DNA of 64,000 nucleotides, from NCBI GenBank assembly GCA_001897425.1, contig MKSW01000038.1, forward strand, positions 124,001 through 188,000, read 5' to 3'. The number at the start of each line of letters is the position of its first letter. Position 1 is the stretch's first letter. Source of the stretch: Actinobacteria bacterium 69-20. GTDB taxonomy: Bacteria; Actinomycetota; Actinomycetes; Mycobacteriales; Nakamurellaceae. The translations under genes were made by a program, and so were the position numbers. The notes under the pieces are model-generated. The model did no database searches and was not told the origin of the DNA. It was given only the letters and a program-made list of their open reading frames with translations. This document shows, piece by piece, positions 57,157 to 64,000 of the stretch.

Positions 57157-57933
57157 TTACGTGGCGAGCCGTAGGACGACGGTGCCATCCGGTTCGACGA
57201 CGTTCACGGCACGGATCTGGCCGGGCGGGAGCGCGGTTCCACTGGTGAACCGTGCCTCCGTGCTCCGCGCCAGCGTCCACGAGCCGATCTCGTGGGATCG
57301 CCCGGACAGGTCGACGACCTGGAGCAGGTAGACATCACCCGACGTGTACTGCGACGAACCGGCATAGCTGCAGTCGATGGTGATCTCGCTCCCCCACGGC
57401 GCCGCTGCGATCGCGGCCGTCGCGCGGATCGCCGCGGCGCCGGTCGCCGTCATCTGCTGGGCAAGAGCCGTGGGCGCGGGGCCTTGCGATGGTACGGCGA
57501 GCGCAACGGCCAGCGCCGCGATCGTGGCGGCGGCGACGGACGCCAGGCCGCCGAACAGCCACCGCGTACGACGGCGCCGTCGTTCGACCAGGCTGACCAG
57601 ACCGGCCACACGGTCCGCCTGCGGGGTCGGTACGTTCGTGGCGGTCGCGGGCTTCGGGGTAGGGGTGTCCCCAGTAGTCGTGTCCTTAGTAGTGCTCTCG
57701 AGGGACAGGGCGAGGGCGTCGCGCACCTCATCGCGCGCCTCGTCGCCGGCAGCGGCGAGCGCGCGGACGACCGGGCGCAGTGCGGCCACCCGCGCGGTGC
57801 ACGCGGTGCAGCCGAGCAGGTGCGCCTCGAACGCCGCGCGGTCCACACCGTCCAGGGCGCCCAACAGGTATGCGGCGTCATCGTGTTCGAACGGATCGAC
57901 GTCCGGTACGGGATCACGGCCCGGGCCGCTCAT
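57157..57933 (-). CDS. Anti-sigma factor (zinc-binding, RslA-like)
   Basis: Membrane-bound anti-sigma factor, 258 residues. The cytosolic N-terminus holds the zinc motif His38-x3-Cys42-x2-Cys45 (FEAHLLGCTACTARV). One membrane helix spans about residues 125-148 (WLFGGLASVAAATIAALAVA), and the extracytoplasmic part (150-258) ends DGTVVLRLAT, resembling RskA/RslA-type sensor domains. ATG 57933 overlaps the sigma gene stop by four bases, so it is coupled to its target. It should hold the sigma factor at the membrane until redox or envelope stress. Confidence 0.88.
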   Translation of the reverse strand: MSGPGRDPVPDVDPFEHDDAAYLLGALDGVDRAAFEAHLLGCTACTARVAALRPVVRALAAAGDEARDEVRDALALSLESTTKDTTTGDTPTPKPATATNVPTPQADRVAGLVSLVERRRRRTRWLFGGLASVAAATIAALAVALAVPSQGPAPTALAQQMTATGAAAIRATAAIAAAPWGSEITIDCSYAGSSQYTSGDVYLLQVVDLSGRSHEIGSWTLARSTEARFTSGTALPPGQIRAVNVVEPDGTVVLRLAT

Positions 57934-58436
57934 GTCAGGCCTCCCATCTCGTCCAGCGCCTCGCGCAGCGCGCGCAGCGCGTAATGCGTCCGCGATTTCA
58001 CTGTCCCCTCCGGCAGATCGAGACGGGCCGCGGCCTCCGCCACACTGGAACCACGGAAATAGCACTCAAGCAACACTTCTCGGTGCTGGTAGGAGAGGGT
58101 GCGCAGCGCACTGATCACCACCTGCCGATCCGCGATCGCCGCGGTGTCGTCCGGGTGCGTGAGTTCCGGCGGGTCGGCGGCCAAGGTTTCGGGATGACGG
58201 GTGCGGCTTCGCCAATCGTCAATGGCGATACGCCGGGCGACGGTGAACAGCCAATTACGGGTGGGCCCGGATCCGGCGCTCAGAGCAGCAGGGTGGCGCC
58301 AGGCGCGAAGGAAGGTCTCCTGCACGACGTCCTGCGCCCGGGTCTCGTCCCCGCCGACCAATCCGGCGACGAACCGCGACAGCGCCGCGCCGTGCTCGTC
58401 GTGCAACTCGCGGATCAATTGCGCCTCGGGGCTCAC
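57930..58436 (-). CDS. ECF sigma factor (SigL-like)
   Basis: ECF-type sigma factor of 168 residues. Region 2 contains DVVQETFLRAWRHPAAL and TRNWLFTVARRIAIDDWRSR; region 4 contains LRTLSYQHREVLLECYFRGS and LDLPEGTVKSRTHYALRALR. GTG 58436 overlaps the membrane-protein stop by four bases and gives a normal ECF length; the longer open frame is low-complexity. The (T/C)GAACC-N16-CGTATC promoters on both sides of the locus match the SigL recognition pattern known from mycobacteria, which supports both identity and autoregulation. Confidence 0.9.
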   Translation of the reverse strand: MSPEAQLIRELHDEHGAALSRFVAGLVGGDETRAQDVVQETFLRAWRHPAALSAGSGPTRNWLFTVARRIAIDDWRSRTRHPETLAADPPELTHPDDTAAIADRQVVISALRTLSYQHREVLLECYFRGSSVAEAAARLDLPEGTVKSRTHYALRALREALDEMGGLT

Positions 58437-59023
58437 CGGTCGGTCCGCCCCTTCGGCGGCGCGTGCCGCATCGGATCGTCCGGGATGCCGGCCGTCGGCA
58501 TCGTCCTGCCCGCTGTCATGGGTGCCGTCATGGGTGCCGTCATAGGCGCTGTCATAGGCGCCGTCGCCGGACCGGCCGGTCCGTGCGACCGGAGGCGCCC
58601 GCCGCGAGTCCGGGCGCGATTCTTCGCGGGGGTCCTGGCGCGGCGGGAGTTCGCTTGCCGTCGCAGGATTATCGCGACCGTCGCGCCGAGCACGACGGCC
58701 GCGTATTCGGCGGCTTCCGCGACTATCTCCGGCCACCCGCCCGTGACCTCCCTGACGCCGAACAGCCCATGGATCACTGAGACCCAGTATGCGGCCACGG
58801 TTGTCAGCCCGAAGCCAGCGGCGAAGAAGGAGGGTATCCAGTGCCGCCAGAACCCGACCGCCGCGGCGATGACGACACCGCCGATCACGTTGGCCAGGAA
58901 CAGTGGCCCGATGACGGGAATCCCGGAGAATCCCTGGGCATAGATGTAGAGATGCACCGCCGCGGACACCAGAACGGCGACCGCGACGCCGACGCGCATG
59001 CTGTTAACCCACTGGCTACGCAT
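58433..59023 (-). CDS. Membrane protein leading the ECF sigma operon
   Basis: Unassigned 196-residue membrane protein with four hydrophobic segments (VGVAVAVLVSAAVHLYIYAQ, LANVIGGVVIAAAVGFW, FAAGFGLTTVAAYWVSVIHG, AAEYAAVVLGATVAIILR). ATG 59023 coincides with the start site expected from the ECF promoter at 59031-59058; ATG 58999 is an alternative. The C-terminal tail has a repeated MTAP tetrapeptide from 12-bp DNA repeats. Overlap with the sigma gene indicates coupling. It may be a target or a modulator of the sigma/anti-sigma pair. Confidence 0.7.
   Translation of the reverse strand: MRSQWVNSMRVGVAVAVLVSAAVHLYIYAQGFSGIPVIGPLFLANVIGGVVIAAAVGFWRHWIPSFFAAGFGLTTVAAYWVSVIHGLFGVREVTGGWPEIVAEAAEYAAVVLGATVAIILRRQANSRRARTPAKNRARTRGGRLRSHGPAGPATAPMTAPMTAPMTAPMTAGRTMPTAGIPDDPMRHAPPKGRTDR
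58515..58562. repeat. 12-bp tandem repeat encoding MTAP units
   Basis: Four units, two GTCATGGGTGCC followed by GTCATAGGCGCT and GTCATAGGCGCC, in the 3' end of the membrane-protein gene. It encodes MTAP repeats on the minus strand. Confidence 0.75.
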
Positions 59024-60078: not shown

Positions 60079-60843
60079 TCAGCTCAGGTTGCGGTGCGGC
60101 GGGTTCGGACCACCCTCGTGGCGGGCGGGGTGGATGGGGGCGATGAGCGCTCGGATCTGCGAAGACGGTGGCACGGCGAGTTCGCGGCGGAGCAGGGTGC
60201 GGTAGGTCTCGTATTGGTGCCAGGCCTCGGCAGCGTTGCCGAGGTTCAGGTGGGCGGTGATGATCAGCCGGTGGGCGCTTTCGCGCAGCGGTGACAGTGC
60301 GGCGGCGGTTTGGGCCAGGGCGACGGCGTCCGCGGCCCGGTGGGCGGCGATCAGTCGGGTGGCAGCGCGTTCGAGGGCGTTGATCTGGCGTTGCCGCAGC
60401 GTTTCTCGCTCGGCGGACACCCAGTCGTCATACCAACCGGGCAGCAGTTCCCCGGAGTCGCGCAGCACGCCGAGTTGTCGGCGGGTGGCGACGGCGTCGA
60501 GGGCGGCGGTGATGGCGGCGCGTAGGTCGTGCACGTCGATCTGCAGGTGCGGATCCAGACCGAGTTGATGCTCGGCGACGGTGATGAGGCCGGGGGCACG
60601 GGTTTGGGTGTGCCACAGCACGTTGCGCAGCCTGCTATGCGCGCTCTGTTCGGTGACCTCTGGCCACAGGATGTCGGCCGCCCACAGGCGGTCAGCTGGG
60701 CCGGCGATCGCCAGCAGCGCAATCAGCCGGTGCGCCTGGTGCTGGATCGGTGGCGGCGTGCCATCGCTGCATAGCGTCAGCGTGAACCCGCCGAGGAGGC
60801 GCAGCCGCGTACCCGAGTCGGGCGAGGCGAGTACGGATCGCAT
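60079..60843 (-). CDS. SARP/BTAD-type transcriptional activator
   Basis: 254-residue regulator of the AfsR/SARP type. The N-terminal OmpR-like winged helix (RLRLLGGFTLTLCSDGTPPP, then HRLIALLAIAGP and SRLRNVLWHTQTR) is followed by a bacterial transcriptional activator domain (LLPGWYDDWVSAERETLRQR, RESAHRLIITAHLNLGNAAE, YETYRTLLRRELAVPPSSQI). ATG 60843 has GGGGGG nine bases upstream. SARPs usually activate secondary-metabolite clusters, so it is a candidate regulator of the peptide locus 0.8 kb away, which is transcribed in the opposite direction. Confidence 0.85.
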   Translation of the reverse strand: MRSVLASPDSGTRLRLLGGFTLTLCSDGTPPPIQHQAHRLIALLAIAGPADRLWAADILWPEVTEQSAHSRLRNVLWHTQTRAPGLITVAEHQLGLDPHLQIDVHDLRAAITAALDAVATRRQLGVLRDSGELLPGWYDDWVSAERETLRQRQINALERAATRLIAAHRAADAVALAQTAAALSPLRESAHRLIITAHLNLGNAAEAWHQYETYRTLLRRELAVPPSSQIRALIAPIHPARHEGGPNPPHRNLS

Positions 60844-61014
60844 CACCGGCCACCCCCCAACACTTCGGGGTCTCCCGGTATTCAGCGAGCCCAGCCCACC
60901 GGCGTCCGGGAGGTCTTGCTGACAGACTTCAGGATCGATCTGATGTCCACTGACAGTCAACGCCCGTGACCGGTTCCGGACGGGCGGATCGAGCTCGGTC
61001 CGGCGCGGCGCGGG

Positions 61015-61323
61015 TCAGGGCTGGGATGCCGGCGGGTCGACCGCCGGCGGCGACCAGTTGGCCGTCGTGTGCTGAAGGAAGGTGCGCAGCCGGGCAAGCA
61101 CGTCATCGATCGAGTCGGTGACCGCCGTTTGCCGGGCGGGCAGCCCGTCCATCGTGACGGCAATGATCCGGGCCCGCACGCCGGCGGCAGCGCTCGTTTC
61201 GCGCCAGACGCGAAGCGTCCACACGGCGCTGTCGACGTCGGTCCTGGACGGTTCGGCGCTGTCGGTTTCCGCACTGTCACCGGCGGGGGGCGTCCCGCAG
61301 GCGGGTCGACCGGGCGATGTCAT
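61015..61323 (-). CDS. Small hypothetical protein
   Basis: Possible 102-residue protein. The middle (VWTLRVWRETSAAAGVRARI, then IAVTMDGLPARQTAVTDSID and VLARLRTFLQHT) has the alternating and helical pattern of a small folded domain, flanked by low-complexity ends. It shares the strand of the SARP gene, 171 bp upstream of it. No family recognised. Codon bias supports coding but the annotation is tentative. Confidence 0.45.
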   Translation of the reverse strand: MTSPGRPACGTPPAGDSAETDSAEPSRTDVDSAVWTLRVWRETSAAAGVRARIIAVTMDGLPARQTAVTDSIDDVLARLRTFLQHTTANWSPPAVDPPASQP

Positions 61324-61619
61324 GGGTCACAGACTGCCACGAAAGTCCAGGTTGCGGCACTGTACGTGCGCACAACGGACGCCCACCGTATCGGCGACGG
61401 ACACCCGGCGCACATGCAGCGGATAGCGGGCGCACATACGGCGGATAGCCGGTCGACGGCCGGCACACGTTCCGCGGACGGCGGGCGGACGGTGCGCCGT
61501 CACACCGTGGACGGCGGGCGAGCATCGTGCACACGCCGGGCGGACGGGTGGTGTGCCTCAATACCGGTGTGCGCACACCCGTTCCGTCCCGGCGACATTC
61601 CGAAGGGGGTGACGAAACT
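61324..61619. other. Intergenic region ahead of the peptide genes
   Basis: 296 bp with no convincing gene. The centre (61400-61520) has degenerate repeats of GCGGATAG and GGACGGCGGGCG-type units. It must contain the promoters of the peptide operon and of the opposite hypothetical gene, but no standard -35/-10 pair stood out. Confidence 0.4.
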
Positions 61620-61814
61620 ATGACCACACTGTCGATCGATGAACTGTGCACGGAGACCGCCGAGCTGCTCCCGACCCGGGAGACACTCGACTTCATCCAC
61701 GTGAACTGGGCCAACGTGTGGGCGAACAACTCGGCGCTAGCGGTGAACGCAGCGTCGATCTTCGCCAACGCGCAGGCCGCCGCCTATCAGCAGGTCAACA
61801 CCCTGCAGGGCTGA
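61620..61814 (+). CDS. Putative precursor peptide 1
   Basis: 64-residue peptide without signal peptide or membrane helix, ATG 61620 with GAAGGGGG upstream. Residues 14-24 (AELLPTRETLD) match the second peptide and look like a leader recognition block. Residues 35-53 (ANNSALAVNAASIFANAQA) form an Ala/Asn-rich segment also seen in peptide 2 and in the secreted Cys-repeat protein downstream. It heads a run of genes ending in a PqqD-domain membrane protease, so a ribosomally made, processed peptide is the best reading. Confidence 0.7.
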   Translation: MTTLSIDELCTETAELLPTRETLDFIHVNWANVWANNSALAVNAASIFANAQAAAYQQVNTLQG

Positions 61815-61907
61815 CGCCCGGGCCGCGGCCCGCGGCCGGGCAGGCCCCGGTGCGCGGGTCGCGGCTACGCGGCGCCAGCGGGGTCGGTACGGCGAAAGGA
61901 GTTATCG

Positions 61908-62114
61908 ATGCCCACCGCCGATGTGATCTGCGGGCCGGAGCTGGCCGCCGAGGCTGCCGAGTTACTCCCCACCCGCCAGACGCTGGATCTCATCAATATC
62001 GTGGTCGCCCCGGTGACCGCGATCAATCTGGCGTTCGCGATCAATGCCGCCACCATCAATTCCACCGCGCAGGCCGTAGCCGCGCAGTGGTTGACGGTGT
62101 TGGCCCATCCCTGA
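61908..62114 (+). CDS. Putative precursor peptide 2
   Basis: 68-residue paralogue of peptide 1, 93 bp downstream, ATG 61908 preceded by GAAAGGAG. AELLPTRQTLD (17-27) repeats the leader-like block, and AINLAFAINAATINSTAQAV (38-57) repeats the Ala/Asn-rich segment. The core is more hydrophobic than that of peptide 1. Small size, duplication and the adjacent protease support a precursor role; no known peptide class fits exactly. Confidence 0.7.
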   Translation: MPTADVICGPELAAEAAELLPTRQTLDLINIVVAPVTAINLAFAINAATINSTAQAVAAQWLTVLAHP

Positions 62115-62204
62115 CCGCCACCACAGGCGCGGGGGCGGCCGGCCACATCCGGCCCGGCCGTCTCCGCTCCCGCCGCACACCGTTTGACCTGCCTAAAGGA
62201 AGCC

Positions 62205-63542
62205 ATGATGCAGACGGCGATGACGGCCGCAGCCCCCGCTCCGTTAACCCGCCGCGCTGGGGTCACACTGGCCGGCGCCTACGACGGGTCCGGCTACGAG
62301 CAGCCCCGTTTCCTGGTGGTACGCGGTGACGGGCAGGCCATTCAGGTCACCCGGGTCTTGTACGAGGTTTTGGCAGCTCTGGACGGCACCTGCGACGCCG
62401 TGGCCGCTTCGGCCGCCGTGAGTAGCAAGATCGGTCGGGAGCTCACCGCCGACGGCCTGCGCCTGCTCGCCGAGCAGAAGCTACGACCGCTCGGGCTCCT
62501 GGACGATCCGCCCGGAGTCGCGTCACCGGCCCAGGCGGCACCGGTCGCCGACCCGCTGCTGCGGGTGCGGCTGCACGCCACCCTGTTACCGGCGCGCTGG
62601 GTGCCGCGGCTCGGCCGGATCTTCGCTCCGCTATTTCATCCGGTGCCCGTGGTCGGCGTGGTGGCGCTGTTACCGGCACTCGATGTCTACCTGCTGTTTC
62701 ACGCCAGCCTGTCCGCCGCCATGCGCCGCGTGATCATCGAGCCGGCGGACCTGCTCGCGCTATTGGGCGTCATGGTCGTCGCCGCGCTGTTTCACGAGAC
62801 CGGCCACGCGGCAGGCTGTGTGCGCGGCGGCGGACGGCCCGGCGCGATCGGCGTCGGACTCTACGTGATCTTCCCCGCCTTCTACACGGACGTCACCGAC
62901 GCCTACCGGCTATCTCGCCGCGGCCGGCTGCGCACCGACCTGGGCGGAGTGTATTTCTCGGCGATCGCGGCCGTGTGCGCCGGTGTCGTGCACGTTTCGA
63001 CCGGTGCGCCCGTCGCGCTCGTCGTGTGCCTGCTCGCCCAAACCGAACTAGCCCAACAACTGTTGCCGTTTGTTCGGCTCGACGGCTATTTCGTGCTCGG
63101 CGACCTGATCGGCATCCCGGACCCGTTCGGCCGGGTGAAACCCATCCTCGAAGGCATGCTGCCCGGCCGTCATATCGACCCGCAGATATCGCAACTTCGC
63201 CGCGGCGTGCGGATCACCGTCACCGTGTGGGTGCTGCTGGTGGTGCCCTTACTCGCCCCAGGACTGGCGCTGTTGGTGTGGCAACTGCCAACCATTGTCA
63301 CCGCCACCTGGGCGTCCATCCTGCACCAGTGGGCGGCGGCGCAAGCCGGGTGGGCGGCCGGTAACCCCTTCGCCGTCATCCTAGCTGCCGTCGCCGCCGC
63401 GATCGCCGCGATCCCCGCCGTCGGCCTCGCGTTCCTCGGCTACACCCTGCTCCACCGCGCCGCACGCTGGGCCGTAAACCGCGGCCGCAAACAGCGCGAC
63501 ACCACCCACCAGCCGCATCCGACCGGAGATGATCCGCCATGA
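62205..63542 (+). CDS. PqqD/RRE-like domain fused to M50 membrane metalloprotease
   Basis: 445-residue membrane protein. Residues 30-108 resemble a PqqD-type RiPP recognition element (RFLVVRGDGQAIQVTRVLYE, SSKIGRELTADGLRLLAEQK). The membrane part is of site-2-protease type: HETGH at 197-201 is the zinc motif and RLDGYFVLGDLIGIPD near 290 gives the third ligand. About eight membrane segments. AAGGA lies five bases before ATG 62205, and the stop overlaps the secreted-protein gene. Proteins of this build are annotated as putative peptide zinc metalloproteases; cleavage or export of the two small peptides is inferred. Confidence 0.8.
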   Translation: MMQTAMTAAAPAPLTRRAGVTLAGAYDGSGYEQPRFLVVRGDGQAIQVTRVLYEVLAALDGTCDAVAASAAVSSKIGRELTADGLRLLAEQKLRPLGLLDDPPGVASPAQAAPVADPLLRVRLHATLLPARWVPRLGRIFAPLFHPVPVVGVVALLPALDVYLLFHASLSAAMRRVIIEPADLLALLGVMVVAALFHETGHAAGCVRGGGRPGAIGVGLYVIFPAFYTDVTDAYRLSRRGRLRTDLGGVYFSAIAAVCAGVVHVSTGAPVALVVCLLAQTELAQQLLPFVRLDGYFVLGDLIGIPDPFGRVKPILEGMLPGRHIDPQISQLRRGVRITVTVWVLLVVPLLAPGLALLVWQLPTIVTATWASILHQWAAAQAGWAAGNPFAVILAAVAAAIAAIPAVGLAFLGYTLLHRAARWAVNRGRKQRDTTHQPHPTGDDPP

Positions 63543-64000
63543 CCGCACACCCACAATCGCGCCGCCGCGTCTCGCGTGCTTGGCCGCGACGCATCGGCGC
63601 ACTCGCTCTCGCCGTGGCCGCTGCCGGTCTCACGGGTCCGCCGATCGCCGTTGCCCAGGTACGGCCGGACCCGCCCGCATCCCCCACCGCGATGACGGCA
63701 AACGTCATCAGGCCGCTGCCGCTCCCCGGCACCAAGGGATCAGGATCCGACCTGGTCGCATCAGCCCAACCCACTGCTGTCGACCCACAGGCGGCCGACA
63801 ACGAGACCGCAACACTGACCTTGAACCGGCCCGGCAAGGCCAACACCGTCGCCACCGCCTCCGCGACCTGCGACGGCTGCGCAGGCACCGCCACCGCCAC
63901 CGCGCAGGTCCGCTTCCTGCCCGCGGCAGGGTCCATCCGCGCCGACAACGTGGCCACCGCCTGGAACGCGAACTGCGAAAACTGCAGCGCACAAGCGGTG
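63539..64000 (+). CDS. Secreted CxxC-repeat protein (partial)
   Basis: 154 residues visible, running off the window. A signal peptide spans about residues 1-39 (RRIGALALAVAAAGLTGPPI, cleavage near AVA-Q). After a Pro/Thr-rich linker, two repeat units appear: NTVATASATCDGCAGTATAT (Cys111, Cys114) and RADNVATAWNANCENCSAQA (Cys146, Cys149). The second matches the Ala/Asn segment of the small peptides (AxNxAxAxNA...AQA). ATGA overlap couples it to the protease gene. Probably a substrate or partner of that protease outside the membrane. Downstream part unseen. Confidence 0.7.
   Translation, partial: MTAHPQSRRRVSRAWPRRIGALALAVAAAGLTGPPIAVAQVRPDPPASPTAMTANVIRPLPLPGTKGSGSDLVASAQPTAVDPQAADNETATLTLNRPGKANTVATASATCDGCAGTATATAQVRFLPAAGSIRADNVATAWNANCENCSAQAV

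Follow-up and report, generated by a model that had tools for sequence, protein, structure and literature searches.

Daptide loci encode an intramembrane site-2 protease (MpaP/DapP) with an N-terminal RiPP recognition element (RRE; RiPP, ribosomally synthesized and posttranslationally modified peptide), and several short precursors with a shared leader motif are found nearby (PMC10036551). The M50 protease EpeP of the epipeptide system is thought to cleave and export the peptide (PMC10885120), and in the RiPP-like TMcin pathway the leader is removed by TmcP, an enzyme of the site-2 protease clan (PMC13252029). Curli, with the subunit CsgA and the nucleator CsgB, are characterized by the curlin motif N-x-Psi-x-Psi-x-Q (PMC10192328); all four articles are cited for the sections available to us. 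Here we analyze a locus of Actinobacteria bacterium 69-20 that encodes two precursor-like peptides, a membrane protease with a predicted RRE-like domain, and a secreted protein with CxxC repeats. It lies at the end of a stretch of 64,000 nucleotides, referred to as the window (G000:C38:124001-188000, in a genome of 4.48 Mb); the contig extends ~33 kb beyond it. The best explanation, held with slightly less than even confidence, is a leader-guided release of unmodified beta-arch peptides that assemble with the secreted CxxC protein as a template. Its parts differ in strength: leader, RRE, and protease very probably act together, and the assembly of unmodified beta-arch peptides with the CxxC protein is proposed more tentatively. 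The literature searched contained no description of this family.

The two peptide genes are arranged in tandem. Precursor-like peptide 1 (64 amino acids [aa]; 61620..61814, + strand) consists of a leader (...ELCTETAELLPTRETL) followed by a core of the pattern N-x-S/A-x-A-x-N ... A-x-A-x-A-x-Q and is conserved in the same-genus genome G122. Peptide 2 (68 aa; 61908..62114, + strand), with an AGGAG 6 bases 5' of its ATG, shares the leader and core pattern and is 47% identical to peptide 1 in an alignment, which bears out the tandem paralogues noticed in an earlier inspection of the DNA letters (the sequence-only reading). The C-terminal ends are LQG and AHP. No convincing Pfam family was found for the window peptides, NCBIfam gave no match for the peptides tested, and the best PHROGs matches of the peptides and the CxxC protein had E values of only 0.07 to 0.08. 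Three observations indicate that the peptide open reading frames (ORFs) are more than chance: (i) their GC content at third codon positions (GC3) is 0.81 and 0.85 (the value for ORF 1 being derived from an over-long start), compared with 0.83 for the protease; (ii) between G000 and G122, ORF 1 has 2 differences in 195 nucleotides, one synonymous and one nonsynonymous, compared with 23 in the 241 nucleotides directly upstream; and (iii) the same gene arrangement is found again in other genomes. The ratio of nonsynonymous to synonymous substitution rates (dN/dS) between these two genomes is 0.165 for the protease and 0.418 for the CxxC protein.

Related loci were collected with the best 80 of 296 protease relatives, which gave 79 loci in a scan of species genomes. 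The total of 100 fetched loci comprises 98 distinct ones, since L036/L055 (Nakamurella lactea) and L048/L115 are duplicate regions; both members of each pair were counted in the leader census and the profile-profile match below, and one of each was dropped from the neighbor, CxxC presence, and core-versus-CxxC shuffle counts (96 loci). L106 and L108 look alike, and both were retained. In these loci the protease is preceded by one to four short ORFs, or by a single ORF of ~200 to 280 aa, with a common leader. A hidden Markov model (HMM) of the leader, run on six-frame translations in which runs of N were entered as A, matched in 88 of the 100 loci at a distance of up to 4.5 kb upstream of the protease and on the same strand; as the model was trained on leaders of 60 of the loci, this number is a census and no blind test. 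It agrees with the expectation of the sequence-only reading that small peptides are conserved beside the protease elsewhere. Of the 12 loci without a match, 7 nevertheless show peptides, on the opposite strand in L063 and L127 and by eye in L068, L097, L109, L123, and L131; of the remainder, L035, L049, and L071 start at or near the protease, and L061 and L077, missed by the protease pattern, were not mapped. Sixteen matches were located elsewhere, 13 of which resemble further leader peptides and 3 of which look like chance. The consensus of 109 leader segments is E-L-[DE]-A-[EQ]-x-[AV]-E-L-L-P-x-R-[ET]-x-[LM], in which the L, P, and R/K columns were set by the search pattern and so give no independent evidence of conservation; the pattern mostly left the acidic EL..E..E positions free.

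The protease is encoded at 62205..63542 (+ strand), with an ATG start at 62205 or 62208 (444 aa counted from the latter). The HETGH and LDG (RLDG) active-site motifs named in the sequence-only reading are present, and H196, E197, H200, and D292 are invariant in all 48 aligned protease sequences (L098, which has a stop codon, L078, L119, and L129 were left out). With an HExxH motif, a distal DG, and a predicted site-2 protease fold, the protein is an M50/site-2 protease. Pfam assigns no family to it. Each of the 48 aligned relatives gave a match to both the daptide protease model NF041824 and the YydH/LiaK model NF058609, the latter being the likeness to EpeP; the window protein itself scores 124 bits (cutoff, 300) and 35 bits (cutoff, 225), respectively. 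By these matches, the daptide protease is the nearest curated family. In the structure model (mean predicted local distance difference test [pLDDT] score, 90), the N-terminal domain, at about residues 20 to 95, is predicted to fold as beta-beta-beta-alpha-alpha-alpha. A Foldseek search with the model retrieved TbiB1 with leader peptide (probability, 0.97; E value, 0.52; template modeling score by target, 0.63; 92 columns) and the site-2 protease 3b4r (probability, 0.84; E value, 0.25), and ion channels and other helical proteins were also among the top matches. The PqqD-like N terminus proposed in the sequence-only reading thus agrees with the predicted fold, but a PqqD/RRE domain was recovered by Pfam HMMs in none of 24 members, and in a profile search against Protein Data Bank (PDB) sequences PqqD appeared only as 3g2b with an E value of 0.85. 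The N terminus is therefore termed RRE-like as a prediction. Six distinct N-type loci (L036/L055, L078, L086, L103, L119, and L130) have a MinD/ParA-type ATPase with a KGGVGKT motif fused to the protease C terminus (PF01656 confirmed for one), and the variant KGGAHKT occurs in L064 and L124.

The comparison with the peptide pathways is closest for daptides, since here too an RRE appears to be fused to an intramembrane site-2 protease, as judged from the predicted fold and an NF041824 match below the cutoff. However, the leader motif is ELLPxR and not ELExMEAP, the invariant C-terminal Thr is missing in the window peptides, a CxxC partner resembling the peptides is present, and the decarboxylase, aminotransferase, and methyltransferase were not found in the scanned flanks or, by eye, among the neighbor clusters. 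Epipeptides require a radical SAM (S-adenosylmethionine) epimerase, and none is present among the scanned flanking genes here. The TMcin system has its own features, namely, a precursor with a transmembrane helix, an ABC (ATP-binding cassette) exporter, and a DsbA-like protein, and an RRE is unmentioned in the available sections of the article (PMC13252029).

We distinguished five types of peptide cores, namely, the N type (window), the S type (Streptomyces), the D type (EELPDREAMSL leaders), a long two-unit type, and a glycine-rich type. In the N-, S-, and D-type cores, an invariant N and an invariant Q are separated by 20 residues, and conserved positions alternate to form one face; columns out of phase with it exceed the others in variability by 1.66, 1.98, and 0.70 bits, respectively (permutation P values of <1e-4, <1e-4, and 0.0098). 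On inspection, N, S, A, and Q appear abundant in the core sequences. The S and D types have an invariant Ser at some positions, so that modifiable residues are not absent. Beside the D-type peptides of L038, L043, L056, L083, L099, and L109, a small basic ORF without leader shows a similar N/A/Q alternation. In L047, L048, L098, L106, L117, L120, L128, and L133, this kind of leader is carried by glycine-rich precursors, of which a locus has up to four; no CxxC unit was found in these loci, and L118 resembles them, although its sequence is too short for a decision.

The secreted CxxC-repeat protein (63539..64000 and on to ~64336, 265 aa, + strand) has a signal-like N terminus, CDGC, CENC, and CTRC repeats, and a helical tail. 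Its start overlaps the protease stop in an ATGA at 63539; the coupling described in the sequence-only reading therefore stands, but a merely coupled gene falls short of the data, because its repeats also look related to the peptide cores. Invariant in 30 aligned CxxC proteins are N137, A139, A141, C146, C149, N171, C180, C183, A189, and Q191. In the structure model, strands flank each CxxC, with ~34 residues per repeat, followed by two helices; most 10-residue blocks between residues 71 and 190 have pLDDT scores of 86 to 97, with a whole-protein mean of 73.6. Foldseek matches of this model are all weak and include SufB/SufD, ice-binding beta-helices, CsgA, FapC (rank 9; E value, 0.67; probability, 0.01), and many further beta-helices. 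Pfam matches (DnaJ CXXCXGXG and zinc ribbon) had E values of only ~1, and the best match of a CxxC profile to PDB sequences had an E value of 0.71, the matches being chiefly coiled coils on the helical tail; none of these was accepted.

The relation between cores and CxxC repeats is apparent at several levels. Each of the two units of the window protein has the N-to-Q spacing of 20 (Streptomyces unit 2 has a longer turn), and out-of-phase columns of CxxC units 2 and 3 are more variable by 1.27 and 1.42 bits (P values of 0.0007 and 0.0002). At an E value of ≤0.01, the only gene that the N-type profile matched in G000 after both peptides was that of the CxxC protein (E value, 0.0026), and in G122 the profile matched a single peptide along with the CxxC gene (E value, 0.0066). 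Against 72 CxxC regions, the N-, D-, and S-type core profiles scored above 5 bits in 27, 17, and 10 regions, with best scores of 25.7, 15.3, and 11.6 bits, respectively; the best N- and D-type scores after shuffling were 10.2 and 8.4 bits. As the best scores exceed those of all 60 parity-preserving order shuffles made per core type, for three core types, the match depends on residue order. For a profile-profile match, 121 CxxC units were cut by pattern and 105 were kept by position, with at least one out-of-frame artifact; cores and units matched in register over 30 columns with a score of 10.83, which none of 200 column shuffles reached. Taken together, the peptide cores and the CxxC repeats look related as versions of a common unit, with the N type carrying most weight.

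In 51 of the 96 loci the CxxC unit is encoded separately, and in 19 it forms part of the protease; 7 loci are undecidable. These data suggest the following mechanism. The small ORF would encode a precursor made up of a core of ~40 residues and, N-terminal to it, an acidic leader (ELxxE..ELLPxRExL), as its conservation supports. The leader would be bound by the RRE-like domain of the M50 protease, as the predicted fold and synteny suggest, and, by analogy with the proteases of daptides and epipeptides, cleavage at the intramembrane active site may free the core of its leader and let it out. Each core would correspond to a single beta-arch unit, similar in kind to a repeat of the CxxC protein, itself probably a short stack of beta-arch units with turns closed by CxxC. 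Outside the cell, peptides may stack on the CxxC protein as template or anchor to give a surface beta-structure, following the subunit and nucleator logic of curli and with no need for chemical modification. Binding, cleavage, export, and assembly are thus steps that we infer.

The core pattern resembles the curlin motif, and if this mechanism is right, beta-arch units, alternating inward residues, N/Q positions, and a related template would be shared with CsgA and CsgB as far as the available sections describe them (PMC10192328). There are also differences, as the repeat is ~34 residues here compared with 23 in curli, with one unit per window peptide. Where curli have a Sec signal and CsgEFG, the peptides here have a leader and an RRE-protease. 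We know of no amyloid or RiPP system with such a processing route. That Actinobacteria release single beta-arch peptides by RRE-guided intramembrane cleavage without modification and polymerize them on a substrate-like CxxC template, as a Gram-positive counterpart of curli, is a possible but rather doubtful generalization.

A number of results weigh against leader-guided release and assembly. (i) No curlin HMM match was obtained, Foldseek gave no significant match for the protease or CxxC models (best E values of 0.13 and 0.14), and the CsgA fibril, at rank 2 for the CxxC model, was nonsignificant (E value, 0.14; probability, 0.06). (ii) An HMM of Streptomyces-type leaders alone finds just 17 of the 68 other loci, and for this reason the leader types are considered related but far apart; its 10 matches elsewhere comprise 8 leader peptides and 2 chance matches. 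(iii) A further 19 of the 96 loci lack a CxxC unit despite enough DNA. (iv) At an E value of ≤0.01, the N-type profile retrieved only two peptides in G108 and did not reach the CxxC gene, and the S- and D-type profiles did not list it at an E value of ≤1 in 13 and 10 genomes, places being compared by position and not one by one. (v) The S type exceeds its shuffles by little (11.6 versus 11.1 bits, with 1 of 60 shuffles reaching the count), the hhalign probability is only 2.3%, and the best column shuffle scored 10.27 compared with 10.83.

The released linear cores could instead be antimicrobial or signaling peptides that act on other cells, with the CxxC protein as an immunity protein or receptor that recognizes its own peptide by resemblance. 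We regard this as unlikely, though it accounts for the tandem paralogues, a patchy occurrence within the genus (3 of 17 genomes), and the regulator of the SARP (Streptomyces antibiotic regulatory protein) type in 16 of 96 loci, and the available sections of two articles link M50 proteases to the maturation of EpeX and daptides (PMC10885120, PMC10036551). However, the cores have the N-, S-, A-, and Q-rich composition noted above and one conserved strand face, the same face being present in the CxxC unit. Typical toxins, unlike such cores, are cationic or amphipathic.

Less probable still is a true RiPP, for which the modifying enzyme would be encoded elsewhere in the genome and the protease would act last. 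The leader and RRE logic and the daptide protease as nearest curated family fit this view, as does the presence in the same genome of a second daptide-like M50 protease inside a YcaO/SagB/TfuA-type cluster, which places such enzymes in the cell. The cluster around this second M50 gene (L004; G000:C33:484000-497000) encodes three YcaO proteins, a SagB dehydrogenase, a TOMM (thiazole/oxazole-modified microcin) leader-binding protein, and a TfuA-related protein and is of the azole or thioamide RiPP kind. Yet, although oxidoreductase-like clusters occur, Pfam recognized no RiPP-modifying enzyme among the genes scanned on both flanks, and by eye none was present among the 22 commonest neighbor clusters of the 96 loci, which were obtained from 784 genes of at least 100 aa predicted with a home-made GC3 gene finder and named from sequence by eye. 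The sequence-only reading, which had seen no modifying enzyme and no known RiPP class, holds in the former respect; in the latter, the protease does have kin. The 22 include separate CxxC genes (29 loci), helix-turn-helix (HTH)-like proteins (25, Streptomyces type), the BTAD regulator (16), and long precursors (16). A short-chain dehydrogenase/reductase (SDR)-like cluster occurs in 12 loci at scattered distances, a flavin adenine dinucleotide (FAD)-monooxygenase-like cluster in 9 Streptomyces loci, and an ABC ATPase-like cluster (10) and an FtsX-like cluster (11) form a pair on the other strand that belongs mostly to Streptomyces synteny; in this reading by eye, none joins the locus across types.

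Very improbable, finally, is a regulatory intramembrane protease with the small ORFs as regulatory baits and the CxxC unit as sensor domain. The unit does sit on the protease C terminus in the loci with fusions, and some N-type proteases carry a MinD/ParA-type ATPase there instead, but up to four leader peptides occur per locus and outward positions are variable.

The SARP regulator of the sequence-only reading was confirmed as a divergent gene (60079..60960, - strand) with a BTAD domain (PF03704; E value, 1e-17), whose BLAST cluster provided the count of 16 loci given above. Between it and the peptides is a 102-aa ORF (61015..61323, - strand) without Pfam match, which is only a candidate member of the locus. 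Upstream repeats, considered as regulator boxes, formed no clear array. Beyond the regulator, Pfam identified a secreted-repeat lipoprotein (PF03640; 59253-59831, + strand) that immediately precedes the SARP-type gene and a sigma-70-family factor (regions 2 and 4) that adjoins a zinc-finger anti-sigma-like protein (57157-58736, - strand). An acetamidase, a GntR regulator, and a TIM-barrel protein were identified on the same side. The further genes past 64000 that had been anticipated consist of the rest of the CxxC gene, but what follows are sugar-use genes and no RiPP-modifying enzyme: an amidohydrolase, a ROK-family protein, a DeoR regulator, a solute-binding protein, and two transport permeases (Pfam).

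Protease matches at an E value of ≤1e-20 were found in 39 of 249 genomes of the order, the own genome included. The titles of the loci in the species-genome scan are mostly Actinobacteria, with two Chloroflexi, and the genera include Streptomyces, Nakamurella, Arthrobacter, Nocardioides, and Mycolicibacterium. Since the system occurs in Streptomyces, with S. canus and S. olivochromogenes among the carriers, and comprises the protease, likely substrates, and a likely partner, it is directly testable in laboratory Streptomyces. If the proposed release and assembly is true, an ELLPxR leader, an RRE-M50 protease, and a CxxC unit would provide a signature for genome mining, and RRE-guided processing would extend past modified natural products to unmodified, perhaps structural, secreted peptides.

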